Positions 10,265 through 26,665 of a stretch of DNA of 64,000 nt are shown piece by piece. The stretch is taken from the NCBI GenBank assembly GCA_030655215.1, contig JAURVZ010000029.1, positions 1 to 64,000 of the forward strand, written 5' to 3'. A model generated the notes under the pieces. It ran no database searches. It was not told where the DNA came from and worked only from the letters and a program-made list of their open reading frames with translations. The position numbers and the translations under genes were made by a program. The stretch's first letter is position 1; every line of letters begins with the position of its first letter. Origin of the DNA: Pseudolabrys sp. GTDB lineage: Bacteria; Pseudomonadota; Alphaproteobacteria; Rhizobiales; Xanthobacteraceae.

Positions 10265-11221
10265 ATGAAAAACTTCATCGGAATCCTCGCCGCCACTCTC
10301 GTATTCTCCGGCTCCGCACTGGCTCAGGAAGACTGCCCGCGCGGTCAGCTCGACAAGGCCTATTGCGACCGCAACGGCGATCTCGTCGCCGATGCACCGA
10401 CCGATGTGAAGAAGCTCGTCAATCCGTCGACGCTCGTCTTCTCCTTCACACCGGTTGAAGACCCGGCTGTGTACCAGAAGGCTTGGGACGGCTTCATCAA
10501 GCACATGGAGAAGGTGACCGGTAAGAAGGTCGTGTTCTTCCCGGTGCAGTCGAATGCGGCACAGGTCGAGGCCATGCGCTCTGGCCGTCTGCACGTCGCC
10601 GGCGTCAATGCCGGTGGCAATGCGCTGGCGGTGAACTGCGCCGGCCTTGTGCCGTTCACGATGATGGCGTCGGCTGACAATTCCTTCGGCTACGAGATGG
10701 AAATCATCGTACCGGCAGACTCCGCGATCAGGAAGCCGGAAGACCTGAAGGGTCACAAGATCGGCTTCAGCGATGCCACGTCGAACTCCGGCTACAAGGC
10801 GCCGTCGGCCATCCTGCAGGCCGACTTCAAACTCGAAGCCAAGCGCGATTACGAGCCGCAGTTTTCCGGCAAGCACGACAACACCATCCTCGGCGTCGTC
10901 AATAAAGACTACGAAGCCGGCGCGGTGGCCAACTCGGTGCTCAGCCGCATGATCGAACGCAAGGTCTTCGACCCGGCCAAGATCCGCTCGATCTACAAGT
11001 CACAGACATTCCCGACCACCGGATACGGCTATGCCTACAATCTCGATCCCGTACTGATCGAGAAGATCAAGGAAGCCTTCTTCACCTTCCCGTGGGAAGG
11101 CTCGGGACTCGCCAATGAGTTCAAGAAGGAAGCCAAGTTCATCCCGATCGACTACAAGAAGGACTGGGATGTGTTGCGCAAGATCGACGAAGTCAGCGGC
11201 GTCAAATACACCTGCAAGTAA
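10265..11221 (+). CDS. phnD: phosphate/phosphite/phosphonate ABC transporter substrate-binding protein (paralog 2)
   Basis: Starts 7 bp after paralog 1 stop and aligns with it over nearly the full length. Confidence 0.88.
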   Translation: MKNFIGILAATLVFSGSALAQEDCPRGQLDKAYCDRNGDLVADAPTDVKKLVNPSTLVFSFTPVEDPAVYQKAWDGFIKHMEKVTGKKVVFFPVQSNAAQVEAMRSGRLHVAGVNAGGNALAVNCAGLVPFTMMASADNSFGYEMEIIVPADSAIRKPEDLKGHKIGFSDATSNSGYKAPSAILQADFKLEAKRDYEPQFSGKHDNTILGVVNKDYEAGAVANSVLSRMIERKVFDPAKIRSIYKSQTFPTTGYGYAYNLDPVLIEKIKEAFFTFPWEGSGLANEFKKEAKFIPIDYKKDWDVLRKIDEVSGVKYTCK

Positions 11222-15304: not shown

Positions 15305-15349
15305 TGGTAGCGAGGAGTGGACTCGAACCACCGACCTACGGATTATGAT
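15305..15349. repeat. attL: 45-bp duplicate of tRNA-Met 3' end
   Basis: Identical to 26589-26633 by direct comparison; the 5' part of the tRNA is absent here. Confidence 0.92.
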
Positions 15350-15463
15350 CTCGCTTATCAGCCTTGATATATAACCAGAATTTCCAGTTATGTTGCATTC
15401 TTGTTGCAGGCGGCCCCCATTCCCGATATTCCCACATGCTGACAATGTGTTCCGGGGCAGCCT

Positions 15464-16678
15464 GTGGCGATCAGAAAACGTGCGTGGACTACGAAGAAGG
15501 GCAAGCACGAGGCTTGGATCGTCGACTACGCGGATCAAGGCGGCAATAGACGTCACAAGACTTTCCCGCGAAAGCGGGATGCCGAGGAGTATGCCGCCGC
15601 AACCCGGGTCCAGATCGGCGAAGGCACACACGTTGCCGACTCAGCGAGCAGATACGTCAAGGATGCGGGCGACCTGTGGCTGGCCAGCGCGAGAGCGGCG
15701 AAGCTAGAGCAAAGCACCCTCGATCAATACGAACAGCACCTCCGGCTTCATATCCTTCCCTTCATCGGCCGTGAGAAGCTGTCTCAATTGACGGTCCCGC
15801 TCGTTAGGGCCTTTCAGGATCGGCTAGACAGCGAGGGGCGATCGTCCGCCATGATCCGGGCCATCATTGGTTCGCTCGGCGCGATGCTTGGGGATGCCCA
15901 AGAGCGCGGGCTGGTCGTCCGGAATGCGGTGAGAGAACTGCGAGGACGCCGCCGCCGGGGAAGCTCTACACAAGACCGGCACAAGAAGCGGCTCAAAGTC
16001 GGCGTCGATATCCCGACGCCCGAGGAGATACGCGCCATCATTGCGCATGCCACACCGAGATGGCGGCTCGTTTTAATGGGAGCGGTTTTCACAGGCCTTC
16101 GCGCCTCCGAGTTGCGAGGCCTCCGCTGGGACGATGTGGACCTGCGAAAGTGCGAGCTTCATGTCAGACAGCGCGCGGACAGGTACAATCGCATCGGCCC
16201 GCCGAAATCGGCCGCCGGGGACCGCGTCATTCCGCTGCCCCCGACCGTCGTTAAAGAACTGAGCGAGTGGAAACTCATCTGCCCAAAGTCTGACGGCAAG
16301 ATCGCGTTGGTCTTTCCGAATGGCGCGGGCAACGTCGAAAGCCACGTCAATATCGTTCAACGCGGGCTTGTCCCTGCCATGCTGGCGGCCGGAATTATCA
16401 AACCGGTTCTGGATGAGAAAGGCGTCGCGATGCGCGATGAGGACGGCAAACCTCTTGTCGGACCGAAATACGGCGGCCTCCATGTGCTAAGGCACTTCTT
16501 CGCCTCGTGGTGCATCAACCGCAAAGAGGATGGAGGGCAAGGCTTGCCGCCGAAGGTCGTGCAGGAACGCCTTGGCCATTCGTCCATCACCATGACGATG
16601 GACACCTATGGCCATCTGTTCCCCCGAGGGGATGACGGATCGGAGTTGGCTGCTGCTGAGAAGCTGTTGCTTGGGTAG
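15464..16678 (+). CDS. int: tyrosine-type site-specific integrase
   Basis: RxxE...(GLRASELRGLRWDDVD), HxLRH (LHVLRHFFASW), LGHSSITMTMDTYGHL; GTG start. Confidence 0.93.
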   Translation: MAIRKRAWTTKKGKHEAWIVDYADQGGNRRHKTFPRKRDAEEYAAATRVQIGEGTHVADSASRYVKDAGDLWLASARAAKLEQSTLDQYEQHLRLHILPFIGREKLSQLTVPLVRAFQDRLDSEGRSSAMIRAIIGSLGAMLGDAQERGLVVRNAVRELRGRRRRGSSTQDRHKKRLKVGVDIPTPEEIRAIIAHATPRWRLVLMGAVFTGLRASELRGLRWDDVDLRKCELHVRQRADRYNRIGPPKSAAGDRVIPLPPTVVKELSEWKLICPKSDGKIALVFPNGAGNVESHVNIVQRGLVPAMLAAGIIKPVLDEKGVAMRDEDGKPLVGPKYGGLHVLRHFFASWCINRKEDGGQGLPPKVVQERLGHSSITMTMDTYGHLFPRGDDGSELAAAEKLLLG

Positions 16679-16733
16679 CGAGTAAGAAAGACCCCGCGTA
16701 AAGAACGGGGCCAATCGAAGCTGAAGTTGCCGA

Positions 16734-16991
16734 TTAAGCGGCTATCGCGGCAGCCCTCGCTTTCTTTGCAGGGCTTGCCTTCGCGGCTGCCCCTGCCCCG
16801 CGCCAATTGGCGAACCAAGTGCGCAGCGTTCCTTGTTTGAGCCCGAGCCGCAGCCCCAATGTCCAGGCCGCATCCGATCCCTGCTCGTCGTAGAGCTTGT
16901 GGACCTTGCCCTTCCTCGATCCCTCCATATGGTTTTCGTAGGCTTCGGCTGGCGCGGGCTTCGCCTTTACTTTCACCTTTGTAGTATTCAT
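16734..16991 (-). CDS. small basic putative DNA-binding protein
   Basis: MNTTKVKVKAKPAPAEAYENHMEGSRKGKVHKLYDEQGSDAAWTLGLRLGLKQGTLRTWFANWRGAG; HTH-like centre with basic tails. Confidence 0.5.
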   Translation of the reverse strand: MNTTKVKVKAKPAPAEAYENHMEGSRKGKVHKLYDEQGSDAAWTLGLRLGLKQGTLRTWFANWRGAGAAAKASPAKKARAAAIAA

Positions 16992-17293
16992 CTCAATCTC
17001 CATGTTTAAGCTCACATCATTTCGAGGATAAGAGTATTTAAAACTATGGATACAAGTAATAATAGTTCTTACTACTCACATAGCTAAAATAATCGCACAC
17101 TCGAATACTCAATTAGATGGCCATGGGGTGGCCTTTATCGCGGCAGCACGGGGCACATAGCCGCCGGGCCGGAAAATCGCTCTGGGACGGCTTAAACAGG
17201 CAGCGCGAGCATCCGGAAAGGGCTTCCGACCGTGATCGGAGCCAAGAATGTCTCTTTTGCAGCAATTCGAGGCCTGTTTGGCAATTCGCAGCC

Positions 17294-17485
17294 CTAAGCT
17301 GACAGGGCTCGCAATCGGCCCGCTGCCGAAGGGGCAGGCTCGAGGTCCGCCAGCCTCAGCCATTCGGCAGCCTGTTCGCGCTTCCTCATCCGGTCACTCC
17401 GAACCGTCAGGGTGCGGGCAACTTCCAAGCATCTTTCAGCTGCCTGCACATACTCGTCACGTCTGCTTCGCTTGGTTGTTGCCAT
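17294..17485 (-). CDS. small conserved-type hypothetical protein
   Basis: MATTKRSRRDEYVQAAERCLEVARTLTVRSDRMRKREQAAEWLRLADLE; resembles short A-rich helical Rhizobiales proteins (xxAxxCLxLA...AWLxLAD). Confidence 0.45.
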   Translation of the reverse strand: MATTKRSRRDEYVQAAERCLEVARTLTVRSDRMRKREQAAEWLRLADLEPAPSAAGRLRALSA

Positions 17486-17674
17486 CGTTGAACCCTTAAG
17501 GCCGCGACGAACGCACTTATATCGCGGACGGAACCTAGGCGAAAGTTACAACTGGTCAAAATTGCTCACTTTGCTATGAACCTCGGAGCAGCTGATGAAT
17601 TGACGTGCATCATTGACCTCCAATGGCACCGGGACTGAGAGCCAATGATCCGGCCTCAAGCCGGTGTGAGTATA

Positions 17675-17836
17675 ATGTGCGAACAGTGTGACCGACTGAA
17701 AGTCCAGATCGCGCGCGGACGCAGGTTTCTTTCTGCGGGCTTGGATGCTGAGGCTCGGGCACGCATCGAACAAGCGATAAAAGAAGCCGAGGCAGAGTTA
17801 GTCAGGTTGGAAGCAACCTGTACCCCGGCATCGTGA
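17675..17836 (+). CDS. microprotein with CxxC motif
   Basis: MCEQCDRLKVQIARGRRFLSAGLDAEARARIEQAIKEAEAELVRLEATCTPAS; start chosen at internal ATG. Confidence 0.45.
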   Translation: MCEQCDRLKVQIARGRRFLSAGLDAEARARIEQAIKEAEAELVRLEATCTPAS

Positions 17837-17955
17837 TGGCTTCGACACGCGATGAAGCCGATCGTTTGATGATGGGTTTGGCGAGCATGCCCGATGAATT
17901 GAATGAACGTATAGGCATCGTTTTGCGCACACTCGATGACGATGACCTCAAGTAA
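17836..17955 (+). CDS. microprotein, translationally coupled to the preceding CxxC ORF
   Basis: Read manually: MASTRDEADRLMMGLASMPDELNERIGIVLRTLDDDDLK*, overlapping the preceding stop (TGATG). Confidence 0.35.
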   Translation: MASTRDEADRLMMGLASMPDELNERIGIVLRTLDDDDLK

Positions 17956-17995
17956 TAGAGCGCGTCATCTTCATAAGTTTTCGTAAACCGATGCC

Positions 17996-18853
17996 ATGTC
18001 ACATCGCCCCCGCATTGATGCGTTTCGTAAAGATATAATCAAGCAACTGCCGAGGGCTCCGGCCACGCGAGCCTCGCTCGCCGCCTTGCACGCAATGCCA
18101 ACGCATCTGCTAATTTTGGCTTTTGTGACGTGGCGCATGCGGTTCATACCGGCAAAACCTCGCACAATTAAGATCTGGTCAGGTGGCGTTGCACCCCCCG
18201 AATTTCAAATAGCCAAGCCAAGACTTCGGCCACTGCTGGAAAAGGTTGAGGCGGGAAAAGACCTGACGCCGCATCTCTCAACTCTGGTGCATAAAAAAGG
18301 TATTATTCTCGAAGGTTCCCGCCGGACTGAACGGCGGCAAGATATCGACATGGTGCTGACGCGACACGGTCTGCATCATTTCCATGTAGGCAAAAACAGC
18401 CCGAATAATCCCAAAGGCCGTAGCGACAGTTTAGTGTTCGCCGAAGTGCTTGAGAAGGAGTTTTTGATTGTCGCGGTGGCCGATCATCGCGCGTTCGAAT
18501 ACGGCTCGCCCGAGCATCTTAAGTTTTTCAGCATTTGCAGCGCTTATACAGCGAAAGACGTTCCACCCGGGCAGGCGTTCATTGCTAACCCTGTCATGGC
18601 ATCGGGCCATTCGATGGTCGTGAAGCTATTTTCCGACCGGTGCGACGATGAAATATCGAGGCTTGATCCGCAATTGGATGACCCGGACTTCATTGACAAG
18701 CTCTACAATGAACAACCAATCCTGCGAGACGGATGCCAAATCATCAGGCCCGCGCAGCCGTCGATGGCTTGGTACTTCAATGATCTACAGTTTGGCATCC
18801 TCGACAGGCGAACGATGGTATTCTTTTGCATCTTTCCATTCTTTGCCCGTTAG
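17996..18853 (+). CDS. uncharacterised 285-aa cargo protein of the integrated element
   Basis: Long ORF; HHFHVG...RSDSLVFAEVLEKEFLIVAVADHRAFEYG region with conserved-looking His residues; no confident family. Confidence 0.65.
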   Translation: MSHRPRIDAFRKDIIKQLPRAPATRASLAALHAMPTHLLILAFVTWRMRFIPAKPRTIKIWSGGVAPPEFQIAKPRLRPLLEKVEAGKDLTPHLSTLVHKKGIILEGSRRTERRQDIDMVLTRHGLHHFHVGKNSPNNPKGRSDSLVFAEVLEKEFLIVAVADHRAFEYGSPEHLKFFSICSAYTAKDVPPGQAFIANPVMASGHSMVVKLFSDRCDDEISRLDPQLDDPDFIDKLYNEQPILRDGCQIIRPAQPSMAWYFNDLQFGILDRRTMVFFCIFPFFAR

Positions 18854-18858
18854 ATCGC

Positions 18859-19668
18859 TCACGCTTGCCCCGGCAGCCAGCCGCCAGTCTGATACTCGTT
18901 GCGTTTAATCGACCCATCCTCTTTCACGACATGGACACGCCGAATGCAAATCGTTTCGATATCGGCGATGGCACCATGATCGACTGGCTCGGGCTGATCG
19001 CGCCGTGGCCCAGCGACAATGAACCCGACCGGGAACCAGCGGTGTAACCCGTTGCGCTCGCCGTGCATCAATGCGGGGCCGCCGCTACAGCCGCTTATAT
19101 TGAGCCCGAGAGGTGGTTTCGGCGTGCCACCGAATGCGTTGTCGCGCTGCGGATCATACGTCGTCCAGATATCTTGCTCGGTGAAATCCTCGACCATAGG
19201 CAAGGCGCCATATGCTTGAAAGACAGCAGACTTATCTACGCTCGTGGTACGCCCCAAGTTTGGCAAGCCAGCCCAACTAAGCGCACGGTTTTTCTGCGGC
19301 TCTGGTGGGGGCCAATCGCCCCGGCAGTCAATGGCGAGCCCATCGATCTTTTTCAATTCATCCTCAGAAAGACCGAACGTAGCAATATCGAGATGGTCGT
19401 CACAATCGATAATCGCTTCGTGAAGCCGAAATTCCATCATTCGCAATTGGCAAACGAAGTTCGGGATCGTTTGACGCGCTTCGTCATAGGCCGCAACCAC
19501 ATGCGCTGCAGTGATGCCAACCAGCCTGTCGGGAAATCGCAAAACAAAACAGGATGCGCCGTTGACCGGCTTCGGAAATAAAGCTTTACGATCATGCCAG
19601 CAGAGCGGCGTACACACTTTGAGCGTGAACTGAGCGATCTCGTTGATGAAATCTGGCGGCATCGACAT
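18859..19668 (-). CDS. trypsin-like (S1-fold) serine protease, no evident signal peptide
   Basis: Candidate triad: His in GITAAHVV, Asp in DDHLDIATFGL, Ser in SGCSGGPAL; spacing fits a chymotrypsin fold. Confidence 0.72.
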   Translation of the reverse strand: MSMPPDFINEIAQFTLKVCTPLCWHDRKALFPKPVNGASCFVLRFPDRLVGITAAHVVAAYDEARQTIPNFVCQLRMMEFRLHEAIIDCDDHLDIATFGLSEDELKKIDGLAIDCRGDWPPPEPQKNRALSWAGLPNLGRTTSVDKSAVFQAYGALPMVEDFTEQDIWTTYDPQRDNAFGGTPKPPLGLNISGCSGGPALMHGERNGLHRWFPVGFIVAGPRRDQPEPVDHGAIADIETICIRRVHVVKEDGSIKRNEYQTGGWLPGQA

Positions 19669-20122
19669 GCTGCTATCTTACGCGCCACATTCAGCAAATG
19701 CACGTCGCCAACGGGCTGCGGATGATCCTTTAAGACAGACGCTTAGGGCGGGCTGGACGGCGATAGCTGCTAACCCCTGATCCTGTTGCGGGCGGCGGCG
19801 GCCTTGGTCAAAGTTAAGGTTGGTAGCCGCCGCGCCGCTGATCCAGCGCTAGCAGGACCACAACTGAAAATGTGAAGGCAATCAATATCGTCATAGCAAC
19901 TCTCCGCTGATTGAAGAACTGACCGGCGAGGCGCTTGCGGATGCTGCCCGTCATCCGTTCGGCAGTGCGTCTCGCCGGTCCCTTGCGCACCCGCCACGTC
20001 GCTTGGAAACGGCCGCGGGCTGTCGGTGATACTTGCTGTCGCGGCTCTTGCCGACTTGCCGCGCCCGGGAGAACGCCTAAAGGCCCGGGGATCAACGTCC
20101 GTCCTTGATGGCCGGAACGGAA

Positions 20123-20953
20123 CTACGCTGCCTCTGCTTTCTTTGCCTTGACGACGACGCCAAGCACGGCCGCCGGGCTGGCATTCGAACGCCGGATCAC
20201 ATCAAGGCCTTGCGATAGAGCAACCTCGATCAACGCTTCCTCAGTTCGCTCCAGCTTGTCGAGTTGGGCCGTTAGCTCACCGGCGCGCTTTTCCTTCTCG
20301 TTCGCTGACAGGGCCAGCTTGGGTTCAGGAAGTGCCTCGATCTCCGCCTCAAGACGCTTGGCCATCGCCTCCGGATGCAGCCACGCCAAGATTGCGACGG
20401 TTCGCGCTGTCGACGTTCCGAACGATTGAGGATCAGCGAACTCGAACTTCACTTCGCCGTTTCGTTCGATGGACACTATTGGCTTACCCTGTCGCTCAAG
20501 CTCGCGCGCATGCGCGCGGGCCTTGGCTTTGAGATCGCCTTTCGGGAGCGGTGCGGTCATCACCGCTCTCAAATGCTGCTGCGCGGCCGTGATCTCATCG
20601 CGCGTGCGTGAGATTGCGCCCGCGAGCGTTTCGTTCTTGAGCGGTTCAGCAATGACGGCCTTTGCCATTACCAGCGAAACATTGCGCGATAGGGATTGCA
20701 GCCAGCGGTCGATCTGAGCACCTAGCGCCGCGAACTCGACCTGGCGCTGGTTCTGCCGCTCTTTCACGGCTTGAAGCCGAGCAATTTCGTGCTCGATGTT
20801 CGGAGCGTCCTGCGGTGTCTTGCCCTCGTATTCCAGCGACTTGCGCAGGTCGATCAGGCGGCGCTGTGCGGATGCACTGGCATCGCGCGCATCCGATGCG
20901 CCCCCTTTGACGGCGTTGAGCTTGGCGCTAGCTTCTGCTGGTAGGAAACTCAT
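20123..20953 (-). CDS. uncharacterised coiled-coil-rich protein in terminase operon
   Basis: MSFLPAEASAKLNAVKGGASDARDASASAQRRLIDLRKSLEYEGK...; E/K/R/A-rich helices; start ATG 20953 overlaps upstream gene end. Confidence 0.65.
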   Translation of the reverse strand: MSFLPAEASAKLNAVKGGASDARDASASAQRRLIDLRKSLEYEGKTPQDAPNIEHEIARLQAVKERQNQRQVEFAALGAQIDRWLQSLSRNVSLVMAKAVIAEPLKNETLAGAISRTRDEITAAQQHLRAVMTAPLPKGDLKAKARAHARELERQGKPIVSIERNGEVKFEFADPQSFGTSTARTVAILAWLHPEAMAKRLEAEIEALPEPKLALSANEKEKRAGELTAQLDKLERTEEALIEVALSQGLDVIRRSNASPAAVLGVVVKAKKAEAA

Positions 20954-21294
20954 GCCGCCCTCCATCGCTCGCTCATACGCTTATCGTAGGAGCCATAGGC
21001 CGCATCCGTGGTGGCGGCCGTTCTTTGCGGGGGCTTGCCGTCTGCCGCGATAACGATCGCTGAAGCATTTTTCCAGCGAGCCGAGATGGCCGCGTCGGCT
21101 TTGTCGTACAGCGCGCCGCGCTGCTCTCGCTGTTCGTCGGTTTGAGGTAGCGGGCCGGGGCGATGGCCTGCCATATCGAATACCGGCGCCGCGTTGGCAG
21201 CAATCGCCCGTTGCGCGTCGGTCATGAAATGCATCGCCACTCTGACCACCTCGCCATCCTTGGCGATCATGTCGTCATCAATTTGAGTTCTCAT
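20950..21294 (-). CDS. uncharacterised ~114-aa protein in terminase operon
   Basis: MRTQIDDDMIAKDGEVVRVAMHFMTDAQRAIAANAAPVFD...; strong RBS GGAGG upstream of tandem ATGs (21294/21297). Confidence 0.65.
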   Translation of the reverse strand: MRTQIDDDMIAKDGEVVRVAMHFMTDAQRAIAANAAPVFDMAGHRPGPLPQTDEQREQRGALYDKADAAISARWKNASAIVIAADGKPPQRTAATTDAAYGSYDKRMSERWRAA

Positions 21295-21326
21295 CATATC
21301 CTCCGTGTGGTGTTGAAAAGGGCTGC

Positions 21327-22823
21327 TCATCCGCTGAAGCCTCCCGAGCGGATGTGCCGTTGCAGGCGGCCGGAATGCCAATTGGCTTGGTCGCCAACAA
21401 AGAAGTTGCGAACGTCGTATGCGCTCTTGTGCCCGACAATCGACGTCATGACGCCCGCGACTACGTTGGCGAGATCATCATGGGCACCGGGCGCATGATC
21501 GATTGAGTCTTTGCCGCCCCTCGCTGTGCGGCGCTCCAACCCGATGAGCTGGGTTCGGATGCGCTCGATATCGAGCAGTTCGACCTTGCGAGAATTGATA
21601 GCAGGCAGGAGATCGCGGTAGAGATCGCTCTTAGGCTTAGCTGCAGGTTCATAGGTGATGCCGTGAACCTTGAAACGCTCTCGGGGCCATTCACCAGCGT
21701 AGCGATCCCCGCAAACCTTGTTGATGCGGTAGCTCTTGAGCAGCAGCGCGAACTCGGCGACCACAGCCTCCGGCGAGAATGGTGGTTTGCGCTCTCGAAC
21801 CGCGTCTAGGATCGCCACGTCTTTCTCGGCGTGAGCGATGGCGAGTGTCATCGAGTCCGCGCTGCCGCCGCTTGGATCGACAAAGGCAACATACTTGACG
21901 CCTGCCATGCGAGGCCGCTCAAGCATGCCGGGCGTGACGCAAGCCTCGACTGCCTCTCGCGCGATCAGGGCTTCAATGTCGCTGCGGAACTGTGCCCCGT
22001 ACTCTGCGGCGGCGCTAGATGGATCGCGTTCGAACGCCTCATCAATCACAGACTGCGGCACGCTCGGGTTCATGTCGCGAGTGCTCGCCTGCCAGACTAA
22101 GACCGGATCGTGGTCTTTACCGTAGTGTTTGCGGTGTGCAGTCCACAAGGCGCCACGTCTCGCATATGGACTTGAGGCGCAAAGCAGCATCGCGTTTGGA
22201 ATTGTCGCCATGCCCGGTCTGATTGCGGCGAGAACTTCCGCATCCGGCTCGGACGAGTCTTCATCTGCCCAAAAGGCCAACTCATCGCAGAGCGCGGCCA
22301 CGATCGTGTAGCCTCGGGTGGAGCGGAAGGATGCGGTGCCGACTTCGATGGTGACATGGTTGGATAGATCGAACGCCTCGGCAGTCTCACGCCTCACCAT
22401 GCTGGCTAGCATCGGAACTTGAGTTAGCAAGGCGCGGATATATCGCAGGATCACACGCGCCTGCTTTCGATCTGTCGCGATCACCAAGACTGTGCCGCGC
22501 TCGCCGGGAGCCAGGTACTGGCGGAAATCATGGAAGCAGGCGAGGAAGACTGCCACGAGTGCGAGGATGAAAGACTTACCCGCTCGCCTGCCACACACCA
22601 GCCAAGCTTCGCTGGCCACGGATGAAGGCGGTTCACTTCGGCCTGTGCAGCGCTGATAGATTTCCCGCTCTTGAGCGGACATGGGCACTGCGAACAAGGC
22701 TGCGAGGAATGCAAACCACGCCGCCCATGTGGTTCGATCTTTGAACCATGGTCCGAATAAGTGCGGGTCTCTGATAGCATCAAGGATGCTGGCGCTTGGT
22801 TCGCTGATGCGAACGCGCTTCAT
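21327..22823 (-). CDS. phage terminase large subunit (TerL)
   Basis: Walker A-like CGRRAGKS, Walker B TIVAALCDELAFW, nuclease acidic motifs FVDPSGG, VCGDRYAGEW, HDDLANVVAG. Confidence 0.9.
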   Translation of the reverse strand: MKRVRISEPSASILDAIRDPHLFGPWFKDRTTWAAWFAFLAALFAVPMSAQEREIYQRCTGRSEPPSSVASEAWLVCGRRAGKSFILALVAVFLACFHDFRQYLAPGERGTVLVIATDRKQARVILRYIRALLTQVPMLASMVRRETAEAFDLSNHVTIEVGTASFRSTRGYTIVAALCDELAFWADEDSSEPDAEVLAAIRPGMATIPNAMLLCASSPYARRGALWTAHRKHYGKDHDPVLVWQASTRDMNPSVPQSVIDEAFERDPSSAAAEYGAQFRSDIEALIAREAVEACVTPGMLERPRMAGVKYVAFVDPSGGSADSMTLAIAHAEKDVAILDAVRERKPPFSPEAVVAEFALLLKSYRINKVCGDRYAGEWPRERFKVHGITYEPAAKPKSDLYRDLLPAINSRKVELLDIERIRTQLIGLERRTARGGKDSIDHAPGAHDDLANVVAGVMTSIVGHKSAYDVRNFFVGDQANWHSGRLQRHIRSGGFSG

Positions 22824-23224
22824 CCATCGGCCTCCGTATGGCGGCTATCTGATTTTCTGCGCAGGTAGTCGGCAAGCGGTGTTATGTCGCGCGCCACCCG
22901 CTTCAAACCCAGCGTGACAAGTACCCGGCGCTGCGCATTGACCGCGACCATGTATTCATCGACAGCGATGCCCTCGCCTTTTAGCCATCGCGTCTCAAAA
23001 TCTTCTACGAATGCGCCGAGAACCGCGGCGCGCTGGACCAATTGCCTGCAAGCAACACTGACCTCGGTCGGGCCGCCAAGGTCTTCGATCAAACCGCTTA
23101 CGAGATCGCGGGTGCGCCTAGCGGCAGCAGTGCGGCCATCAAGATCATCTAGGGTACGAAGTCTTGCCTTACCGCGATCCCGAGGCAATTTTGTCGGCGC
23201 ATCTATGGCTATTCGCTCTCGCAT
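22820..23224 (-). CDS. putative terminase small subunit
   Basis: Immediately upstream of and overlapping terL by 4 bp; ~134-aa helical protein. Start at ATG 23224 preferred over 23296 because a perfect palindrome occupies 23275-23289. Confidence 0.55.
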   Translation of the reverse strand: MRERIAIDAPTKLPRDRGKARLRTLDDLDGRTAAARRTRDLVSGLIEDLGGPTEVSVACRQLVQRAAVLGAFVEDFETRWLKGEGIAVDEYMVAVNAQRRVLVTLGLKRVARDITPLADYLRRKSDSRHTEADG

Positions 23225-23457
23225 TGCGGCTCTACCTGCCAGCGATCTGCGGATTAACACAGCAAGTAGTGCAGTGCAACATTGTTGCAGCATCAATCAC
23301 TAAACGTCAGTATTATCAGGCATATTTTAATGAAAAGCGGATAATCAATCCGGCAATCCGACGGGAAAAGCTTTTTATTTTCAATGGTGGTTGAATGCGA
23401 GGTGGGGCTCAGAGAACTCCTTATGAAACGGCTATACCGATACAAACCGGAGCATCC

Positions 23458-23799
23458 ATGACCGAAAGACCCAATAGGGCAAAGACGCCACCTGCCGTAA
23501 AGCTGCGACGCGCTCTTCGCATCAGGCTTCTTTCGCTCATTTCTCTTATGCTTTTATTTGTCGGCTCGGCGTTGGTGATCGATCATTACGGTGTGTTTCG
23601 ACATACAGCCGCCCAAGTGATTTTCGCTGCCGTCTTCGCTGGGAGCATCCTTGCGTTAGGCCTGTGGAAGTCACGGGCTCCCTGTCCGAACTGTGGTTGG
23701 AATATTCGCTTCAGGAAGACAAGTTTTCCAATGGTTGCCGCGCAGGTACCCTCGGTCTGCCCGAACTGCGGCCTCGATCTGGAAAAATACCGACCGTAA
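23458..23799 (+). CDS. membrane protein with double CPNCG zinc-ribbon motif
   Basis: Two hydrophobic helices then SRAPCPNCGWN...VPSVCPNCGLDLEKYRP. Confidence 0.6.
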   Translation: MTERPNRAKTPPAVKLRRALRIRLLSLISLMLLFVGSALVIDHYGVFRHTAAQVIFAAVFAGSILALGLWKSRAPCPNCGWNIRFRKTSFPMVAAQVPSVCPNCGLDLEKYRP

Positions 23800-23836
23800 C
23801 AACGTGCAGTTCGAAGTCTTTGTTTAATTTCAGCCG

Positions 23837-24175
23837 CTAGCCACCATGCCTTGCCAAATGCTTCGCTAGGAGCGCCCAAGTGTGTCGTTCGAACTGTCGA
23901 GCAAGAGCGATATCGGCAAACAGTTTGGACACTATTTCATCCGCGCCAATTGCAGCGTCTGGCTTGATGCCTAGTTTGAATTTCTTGCGCGCATCCCGTC
24001 GCCTTTGTCGCTTACCTGGAGGCAAGCAGGAAAACGACTCTCTTGTTCGGTTCGCGGACTTTGGTTTCTTAACGGTGCTAGTCGCTACAATCTTTGCAGC
24101 CAGCAAATTAGGGTCGCGAGAGCGATACTCGGTTTTGCGCTTCCTTCTTTCCGGCTCTAGTCTAATTCGGTCCAT
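23837..24175 (-). CDS. hypothetical basic protein
   Basis: 112-aa ORF, K/R-rich; no family recognised. Confidence 0.4.
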   Translation of the reverse strand: MDRIRLEPERRKRKTEYRSRDPNLLAAKIVATSTVKKPKSANRTRESFSCLPPGKRQRRRDARKKFKLGIKPDAAIGADEIVSKLFADIALARQFERHTWALLAKHLARHGG

Positions 24176-24295
24176 TTCTTTCTCTCCAACTGCCTAAAGA
24201 ACCGAAGGTTCAAAATACGGGCTTTGCCCGTAATCATAAGCTTCGCTTTCTTTTTTCGCTTCTATCCTCATTCTTATATCATGTAGCCAACATGT

Positions 24296-24389
24296 CCCCT
24301 GTCTTGCATCGTTAGCTCCCCCGTCGTGCATTGGTGGGTGCCCAGTCCTGCATCATCGCGAACAATCCAACTCCCCAGTGCTGCATCGT
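24296..24389. repeat. iteron-like direct repeats, candidate replication origin
   Basis: CCCCTGTCTTGCATCGT (24296), CCCCCGTCGTGCATTGG (24318), GCCCAGTCCTGCATCAT (24340), CCCCAGTGCTGCATCGT (24373); starts 22, 22 and 33 bp apart; directly downstream of rep-like stop. Confidence 0.7.
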
Positions 24390-24391
24390 GG

Positions 24392-25585
24392 CTATTCGCC
24401 TGCCTCTGCGAGTGATTTGCGGACACCCATCACTGATCCATGCCAGCGACGCCAGTTTTGAAAAGCCATCTCAGCGTCCTCGGTATTCTGAAATTCAGTT
24501 CCTCTCGCTGCCATCATCTCCACGAACCTGCGCTCCTCTAGCAGTTCACGAAGCTCTTCCCGGCGGTTTTCGCGATCGTCAGGCGAGAAGAGTCTTTTGG
24601 CTAACCTCTCATGATGCTGACCAACATCATCGCGACTAGAGGCCTCAGCATGGTCGTTTAATTCTATTCGAACGCGGCGCAACGAGCGCTTCGCCTTCGG
24701 CTTGCTGACCTTCATGTTTTTGAGGACAGCGAGGTTTATTTTATTGTCGCCTCGGGGCCAGTGCCACAAAAACTGGCCGCCATGCTCGTCGAACCAATCG
24801 GAGACGGCATCTAGTGCAAGCCGCAATCTGGCCGCTCGATTATGATGGTTCAGACCGATCTTGCGACACAGCGGCCGTATCTGCCGATGCCATACGTCCC
24901 CGCCATCTCTTTCCGAGTAGGTAGTGAGAACGGCAAGAGCCAGGTTTTGTGCGACGGCGTCCCGAGGTAGAGGCAAGGGAGCTTGTGCAAAATATCGCTG
25001 TCCAAACTCTCGCCATTCATCTGTTATTGAAATTCGGATACGGCCTTCGCCGGTATCAAGTGTTTCAATTGGTGGCGACAGGAGTTTTTTCTCCCGTTTT
25101 CCAATCTGATTTATGCTGTAGTCTTTTCGTCGACCCTTGCGGTAGTCGCTAAACACTTCGCCGGTATCGTTGTCGATATAGCGAGACTTGACAGGCACAT
25201 ACCATTTTTCGAACCAGATCATCAGCATCGACCAGAGGTGCAGCGAGTTCTTTAGCTTTTGCCGGTGACGCGGTGTGACGCTGTAGTCGAGCATCTTGAG
25301 TGCTGCCGCGTAGGATGGAAATTGAATTTCATTACTGTCTCTCCGCTTCGCTTCACTTAGGAGCAGGACGAGCACGTTGACATCAAATGCCGTGGGCCAT
25401 CGCAGCAGTCTTTTTGGGGTGTGTTCGGGCAATCGATATTGCAGGCTGCGATCACCCGGCAGATCAAGAAGCCAAACTCCGGTCTTCTCAGACCTGCGCC
25501 AATCGATTTCCAGCCTCGCATCTCGCGCCATCGGAAAATTGCAAAAATTTCTATTGATGGGGGCAAACCGGCCTTTATCAGTCAT
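24392..25585 (-). CDS. Rep-like replication initiation protein
   Basis: Plasmid RepA-like: LEIDWRRSEKTGVWLLDLPGDRSLQYRLPEHTPKRLLRWPTAFDVNVLVLLLSEAKRR...YRKGRRKDYSINQIGKREKKLLSPPIETLDTGEGRIRISITDEWREFG. Confidence 0.7.
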   Translation of the reverse strand: MTDKGRFAPINRNFCNFPMARDARLEIDWRRSEKTGVWLLDLPGDRSLQYRLPEHTPKRLLRWPTAFDVNVLVLLLSEAKRRDSNEIQFPSYAAALKMLDYSVTPRHRQKLKNSLHLWSMLMIWFEKWYVPVKSRYIDNDTGEVFSDYRKGRRKDYSINQIGKREKKLLSPPIETLDTGEGRIRISITDEWREFGQRYFAQAPLPLPRDAVAQNLALAVLTTYSERDGGDVWHRQIRPLCRKIGLNHHNRAARLRLALDAVSDWFDEHGGQFLWHWPRGDNKINLAVLKNMKVSKPKAKRSLRRVRIELNDHAEASSRDDVGQHHERLAKRLFSPDDRENRREELRELLEERRFVEMMAARGTEFQNTEDAEMAFQNWRRWHGSVMGVRKSLAEAGE

Positions 25586-25760
25586 CGGTCCGCCACCACG
25601 GACGGAACGGGCGGGCGGGGGCCGATGGAAGCGAACGGGCGCGCTTCTTTTGCTTTTTCGGTTTCGAGGCCCGGACTACCAAACGATCGCTCTTGGCCTT
25701 AGGCGGAGGCGACGCAGCAAAGAAGTGTCCGGGTGGCGGATTGTCATGCCTATTGGGCAT
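25578..25760 (-). CDS. small hypothetical protein between HTH gene and rep
   Basis: MPNRHDNPPPGHFFAASPPPKAKSDRLVVRASKPKKQKKRARSLPSAPARPFRPWWRTDD; overlaps both neighbours by a few bp, consistent with translational coupling. Confidence 0.45.
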   Translation of the reverse strand: MPNRHDNPPPGHFFAASPPPKAKSDRLVVRASKPKKQKKRARSLPSAPARPFRPWWRTDD

Positions 25761-25950
25761 TCGCTGCCCCCAACGCACGATCAAGTTCGCTCTTGCGCGC
25801 AACGATGGTTTTCGCGCCGAGCTTCTTTGCCGGAATGCCGCCGGTCGCTATCAAGTAATACGTTTGCCGCTGGCTGCGTTGAATGTACGAGGATATTGCC
25901 TCGACGCCCCACAGGACGTCATTGGCCAGATTGTCATCTTGTTCGATCAT
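25750..25950 (-). CDS. AlpA/excisionase-like helix-turn-helix protein
   Basis: LWGVEAISSYIQRSQRQTYYLIATGGIPAKKLGAKTIVARKSELDRAL; MerR/excisionase-type wHTH. Confidence 0.75.
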   Translation of the reverse strand: MIEQDDNLANDVLWGVEAISSYIQRSQRQTYYLIATGGIPAKKLGAKTIVARKSELDRALGAANAQ

Positions 25951-26012
25951 GGCGCGCTCCTTTGCACCATGATGGAAATATCGGAATTGTTTGGGACAAT
26001 CCCCGGCAGGAA

Positions 26013-26459
26013 TTATCTAGATTTGCCGGACCCTCTCAGTATCGAAGACTCCATGTGCCGCTTTATGGTGGACTCTTTCCAAGAGACGCCGACAGCTTCA
26101 AGCCAGTCCATGGCTTCTTTGGCCGCTTGGTCTTCCGCGCTCATTTCAGGGCTATCTCTGTTCACCCCAGTCGCCTTCCGCCCGGCTGCAATCAATTCGG
26201 CTTTGCGCTCGCATGCGATGTTGATGGCGGCGTACTTCAATATGTCGTTCACGGCGCTGTTCGGTCGTTTCTTACGTTCGAACAATTTGAGGAGGCTTCT
26301 AGCAATATCGAGCGGCAACTTAACCGATTGCGCCTCTCCCGCCGTCGCGGATGCTACTTCTAAATAGTCGAGGGCTTGAGCGGGTCCGAGCCCCTCAAGA
26401 AAATCCTCAAGCGTCTCGCCCAGCAATTCGACCAGAACTTTGTCGCGTTCATGTTGCAT
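26013..26459 (-). CDS. hypothetical protein, first gene at the tRNA-proximal end of the element
   Basis: MQHERDKVLVELLGETLEDFLEGLGPAQALDYLEVAS...; 5' end uncertain (26459, 26516 or TTG 26522). Confidence 0.5.
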   Translation of the reverse strand: MQHERDKVLVELLGETLEDFLEGLGPAQALDYLEVASATAGEAQSVKLPLDIARSLLKLFERKKRPNSAVNDILKYAAINIACERKAELIAAGRKATGVNRDSPEMSAEDQAAKEAMDWLEAVGVSWKESTIKRHMESSILRGSGKSR

Positions 26460-26588
26460 GGACACAGCGCTACGTTCTGTAAGCCATTGAAAACATGAAG
26501 GATCATATTGCAACATGTGCAACAGAGATAGACGCCAAATCGAAAGGCGATTAACAGAGATTATTCAATGTTATCAGGGAATTAGTGT

Positions 26589-26665
26589 TGGTAGCGAGGA
26601 GTGGACTCGAACCACCGACCTACGGATTATGATTCCGCCGCTCTAACCAGCTGAGCTACCCCGCC
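26589..26665 (-). tRNA. tRNA-Met (CAU), elongator type; integration target, CCA encoded
   Basis: Reverse complement GGCGGGGTAGCTCAGCTGGTTAGAGCGGCGGAATCATAATCCGTAGGTCGGTGGTTCGAGTCCACTCCTCGCTACCA folds as a cloverleaf with CAT anticodon; 7-bp acceptor stem contains two G-U pairs. Confidence 0.92.

Follow-up and report, generated by a model that had tools for sequence, protein, structure and literature searches.

In PICIs, the replication origin lies immediately 3′ of the initiator gene, in a segment that has been experimentally tested as an origin, and in the E. coli PICIs two iteron sets flank an AT region (PMC6092414). In iteron plasmids, cooperative binding is lost when the spacing between iterons is shifted by half a helical turn (PMC4980987). 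We analyzed a stretch of 64,000 nucleotides of Pseudolabrys sp. DNA (contig JAURVZ010000029.1, positions 1 to 64,000; the window), in which a first-pass annotation had proposed an origin composed of a rep gene, iterons, and an AT-rich unwinding element. We estimate a probability of about 80% that the array described here is the Rep-iteron-DUE replication origin of an integrated PICI-like satellite. The kind of module is ordinary, an iteron origin; its setting is unusual, with an orphan initiator and a satellite that has a complete terminase.

The array consists of four imperfect 17-bp repeats on the plus strand: iteron 1 (24296 to 24312, CCCCTGTCTTGCATCGT), iteron 2 (24318 to 24334, CCCCCGTCGTGCATTGG), iteron 3 (24340 to 24356, GCCCAGTCCTGCATCAT), and iteron 4 (24373 to 24389, CCCCAGTGCTGCATCGT). 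Their TGCAT cores were found at 24305, 24327, 24349, and 24382, just where the first-pass annotation had placed them, and these four iterons are the only sites in the window with two or fewer mismatches to CCCCNGTCNTGCATCGT. The columns that do not vary across the four copies are the T at position −1, CCC, GT, and TGCAT. The summed pairwise score of the four-copy set was 80, against 68 for the runner-up in the window, and none of 300 dinucleotide-preserving shuffles generated from the 2.4-kb region reached this value (best 63, mean 56.2, standard deviation 2.1). Pairwise identity was 65 to 82% among the iteron copies and 0 to 60% among the 5-nt spacers; that the core is kept while the spacers vary suggests selection on the motif rather than recent tandem duplication.

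The 17-mers start at 24296, 24318, 24340, and 24373, giving intervals of 22, 22, and 33 bp. These are exact multiples of 11, as had been claimed, but the accompanying claim that a bound protein would sit on the same DNA face did not reach significance for the window array alone. Assuming 10.5 bp per turn, the sites fall out of register by as much as 0.33 turn (R 0.73, p 0.11), and with a drift of a third of a turn, binding to one face is plausible for this array and not significant on its own. An iteron origin is expected to contain several phased direct repeats above chance; such repeats are present here, with phasing that is only suggestive in the window by itself, and the phasing was significant in both related arrays described below (p 0.003 and 0.014).

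The array abuts the stop codon of the rep-like open reading frame (ORF) on the 3′ side of the gene, as annotated: it ends at 24389, and the minus-strand stop codon occupies 24392 to 24394, 2 bp from iteron 4. The AT-rich tract reported beside the repeats, a candidate unwinding element at 24237 to 24290, was likewise borne out, with 65% AT against an element average of 44%, in line with the AT-rich region that adjoins the repeats of iteron origins. It ranks in the top 1.4% of 54-bp windows by AT content, and three more tracts in the element, near 17035, 23300, and 15350, are similarly or more AT-rich. Between this tract and o112, the first gene after the array (23837 to 24175, minus strand), which encodes a small basic protein, lies a GC hairpin (ACGGGC-TTT-GCCCGT, 24217 to 24231). 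A DnaA box near the repeats is a common, not a universal, feature of iteron origins; none was found near the array, and the closest perfect match falls within rep, at 24984. One iteron set plus the AT tract was seen, and no second set, which in the PICI style would flank the AT region, was found.

The candidate initiator is the 397-aa product of the rep-like ORF (24392 to 25585, minus strand). None of the family libraries searched supports the name rep that the ORF had been given: the protein had no family match in Pfam, PHROGs, NCBIfam, or the PDB, and no homologue was found among phages, plasmids, viral contigs, genome contigs, and whole-genome samples. Partial matches in other genomes (E 0.002 to 1) were inspected and dismissed as chance. 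We rejected an identity as a PICI Pri-Rep protein, since no match to such a domain was obtained in Pfam, PHROG, or NCBIfam at E values up to 10; nor was a primase or helicase domain recognizable. The AlphaFold models (mean pLDDT 36 and 35 in two runs) were too low in confidence to use. The ORF is a candidate for the adjacent initiator through its slot, its size, and its weak similarity to the L071 and L081 proteins considered below.

The array lies within an integrated 11,284-bp element that is delimited by exact 45-bp copies of the end of a tRNA-Met gene. The left att repeat is at 15305 to 15349 and the right at 26589 to 26633, inside the tRNA-Met gene itself (26589 to 26665). A PICI should have an integrase, precise att boundaries, a size around 15 kb, and an AlpA-type regulator, and should be without phage structural or lytic genes. 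The element has the boundaries, a size in this range, and a tyrosine integrase (15464 to 16678, plus strand), together with an AlpA/excisionase-like helix-turn-helix protein (25750 to 25950, minus strand) whose matches to HTH_17 and to excisionase-like families are weak (PHROG 18541, E 6.5e-6) and which has kin in at least 10 related elements. The minus strand also encodes a terminase large subunit (TerL; 21327 to 22823; PHROG 2, E 6.9e-21) and, upstream of it, a TerS-like protein (22820 to 23296) that is conserved in relatives and has no family match; two conserved genes, o143 (20950 to 21381) and o280 (20123 to 20965), follow TerL on the same strand. No match to portal, capsid, tail, or lytic genes was found among the tested ORFs of the element, a set that covered part of its small ORFs. 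A PICI-like phage satellite with no recognized capsid gene would best explain this gene content. Two further plus-strand ORFs were observed. A 285-aa cargo ORF (17996 to 18853) is similar to the defence protein PD-T4-7 of PADLOC (E 5.2e-9) and is a candidate for an anti-phage defence gene carried by the satellite, and an ORF at 23395 to 23799 with weak zinc-ribbon matches lies between the TerS-like gene and o112, opposing the direction of the operon.

With TerL as query we collected 155 related loci, 80 from bacterial genomes and 75 from viral contigs. Six relatives are delimited by exact 45- to 55-bp tRNA-derived repeats and span 11.5 to 12.7 kb, and in three of these six no structural genes were found among the ORFs tested. 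The recurrence of this compact gene set between exact tRNA repeats disfavors a decayed prophage, and a phage satellite fits better. The elements of 11.3 to 12.7 kb, among them window positions 15305 to 26588 and L068, L069, L107, L119, L121, and L122, occupy tRNA genes of Bradyrhizobium, Afipia, Nitrobacter, and relatives and carry an integrase, a helix-turn-helix protein, a variable replication gene, TerS-like and TerL genes, and an o280-like gene, and no capsid gene was recognized in them. Certain more distant TerL loci bear virion genes, such as a tape measure protein in L055. In L056 (12045 to 14312) the TerL frame is split in two by an ORF on the opposite strand, which may represent a transposase insertion.

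The content of the replication slot, the interval from the AlpA-like gene to TerS, differs among the related elements. The slot holds primases or helicases in L047, L052, L055, L056, L069, L126, and L159, and proteins of about 310 to 350 aa with no family match in L119, L122, and others. A literature search, which was not exhaustive, found no description of this element family. We incline, by a modest margin, to regard it as an undescribed alphaproteobacterial satellite family of 11 to 13 kb that has TerS-like and TerL genes and no capsid genes and that swaps replication modules, namely primases or helicases, the proteins of about 310 to 350 aa, or, as here, an orphan initiator with its own four-iteron origin.

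In two relatives the slot protein resembles that of the window: a 400-aa protein in L071, from an Afipia MAG, and a 377-aa protein in L081, from Bradyrhizobium viridifuturi SEMIA 690, which are 35% identical to each other over 329 residues. In single comparisons centered on a common PLPLP segment, the window ORF matched the L081 protein with an E value of 2e-5 and the L071 protein with an E value of 5e-4. With a profile built from the L071 and L081 proteins, the window ORF was, of about 20,000 ORFs, the best further match (E 0.036), and a profile search for more Rep relatives recovered only L223 (genome G278), probably the same record as L071. These matches are suggestive of homology between the window ORF and the two proteins, a case strengthened by the identical slot.

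Both L071 and L081 have exactly four direct repeats after the rep gene, AGGTCGGGCAACTGTGA at intervals of 31, 31, and 21 bp in L071 and CTCGTACATCTGGGAGG at intervals of 32, 32, and 22 bp in L081. In both, the repeats are followed by a tract of 67% AT, then a GC-rich hairpin in the equivalent position (judged by eye), and then an o112-like gene; the L081 protein in this place matched o112 with an E value of 2.8e-4 in a direct comparison. On its minus strand the window has the same order of rep, four repeats, AT tract, hairpin, and o112. This recurrence in two relatives, with a weakly homologous protein and phased repeats, supports the origin that the first-pass annotation proposed. The annotation had also staked its reading on conservation of spacing in related elements; copy number and helical phasing are kept, but the intervals themselves are not identical. 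Iteron sequences are similar between L071 and L081, and those of the window showed no detectable relationship to either set (p 0.13 or more), a pattern that would be expected were iterons to diverge along with their initiators.

Array scores were compared over the 5.5 kb that precede TerL. A three-copy repeat scan was dropped as a control because the window's own array escapes it, and the four-copy score was used instead. The best arrays scored 80 in the window and 102 and 83 in the two relatives. Eleven relatives with other replication genes had no comparable array upstream of TerL (scores 58 to 73), and 9 of them scored in the shuffle range of 63 or less, the exceptions being L048 (73) and L069 (67). 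When four-copy arrays with any spacing not divisible by three were counted over the 155 loci, 12 lay on the replication side of TerL and 1 on the other, although a few of these 12 consist of low-complexity sequence. An iteron-like array may form part of the coding sequence in L050, where direct repeats (10878 to 10980, core GTGCGGAAACCACCACTAC) fall within the 3′-terminal part of the 216-aa ORF that occupies the replication slot. Unrelated four-copy arrays near replication genes were also noted in more distant TerL-linked elements (L126:8095, L135:2131, L159:3638, L180:6313, L183:2633, and L049:9561).

Packaging sites can be short phased direct repeats, such as the R sites of lambda cosB, and the TerS-like/TerL pair lies about 1 kb downstream of the array, so the repeats could instead be a pac- or cos-type site recognized by the TerS-like protein. 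The eleven relatives without such an array nevertheless have homologous TerS and TerL, and in all three elements with this type of rep-like ORF, the array directly follows that ORF, not the terminase genes. The repeats therefore track Rep rather than the terminase, and we consider a packaging site improbable. Less probable still is that the repeats are operators through which Rep or the AlpA-like regulator controls o112-terS-terL, with no origin function. Initiators often autoregulate, and o112 and the packaging genes do lie downstream of the array on the same strand; however, AlpA-like proteins occur in many relatives and comparable arrays do not, and operators would leave the neighboring AT tract and the PICI rep-then-ori precedent unexplained. 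Least probable of all are functionless leftovers of a local duplication, which would agree with the imperfect window copies but not with cores conserved where spacers are not, nor with the independent four-copy arrays of different sequence at the corresponding position in L071 and L081.

Taken together, the anatomy of the sequence, the ends of the element, and an arrangement conserved in two relatives argue for a Rep-iteron-DUE origin. Counting against this reading are the orphan ORF, the weak homology, the unrelated iterons, the lack of a nearby DnaA box, the single iteron set, and the non-significant phasing. If the array is such an origin, we infer that the element would excise as a circle before replicating, and that Rep, the product of the adjacent ORF, would bind the four phased iterons on roughly one helix face and help to melt the neighboring AT-rich tract. 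Rep would then recruit replication proteins of the host or of a helper phage; with no primase or helicase domain in Rep, these would have to be borrowed, as discussed for RepA of PLE (PMC7145576). The copies would then be packaged into helper particles by the element's own TerS-like/TerL terminase. Should the module work, it would constitute a new pair of initiator and origin, derived from an alphaproteobacterial satellite, and satellites would appear to swap replication modules yet retain one packaging module. Such initiator/origin pairs could serve as replicons for rhizobia and their relatives, and a TerL of its own in an element without a capsid raises a testable question, namely, which helper packaging step do satellites redirect?

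Among known systems, iteron plasmid origins (Rep_3-type, RepE, TrfA, and pi; PMC4980987) likewise combine phased direct repeats of about 17 to 22 bp with an AT-rich region and an adjoining initiator gene; the window differs in that its ORF has no detectable homology to them, no DnaA box lies by the array, and the element is integrated. PLE of Vibrio cholerae is similar in having a satellite initiator, of the RepA_N type, with no predicted primase or helicase, an iteron origin, and other replication proteins that are borrowed (PMC7145576). The rep-like ORF of the window, in contrast, has no RepA_N match, and the iterons of PLE are semi-palindromic and surround a poly-A tract, unlike the direct repeats seen here; PLE is also larger and has a serine recombinase, whereas the window element has a tyrosine integrase. 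Closest are the pri-rep-ori replicons of PICIs and SaPIs, such as EcCICFT073 (PMC6092414), which share with the window element a compact island bounded by a tRNA gene or att sites, an integrase, and no recognized structural genes. Their AlpA-type regulator has its counterpart here in the weakly matched AlpA-like protein, and their initiator gene, followed directly by iterons and an AT-rich region and then by a terminase small subunit gene, in the candidate initiator, the array with its AT tract, and the TerS-like gene. Unlike a PICI, the window element has a candidate initiator in which neither a primase or helicase domain nor membership of a family was recognizable, a single group of four iterons rather than two sets flanking the AT region, and a TerL besides the TerS-like gene. 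We did not file it as a PICI because of the missing Pri-Rep domain and second iteron set, the weak AlpA match, and a helper dependence that is only putative. We nevertheless predict that the element works like a PICI replicon, and its origin would represent a novel version of the known PICI plan of rep followed by ori.
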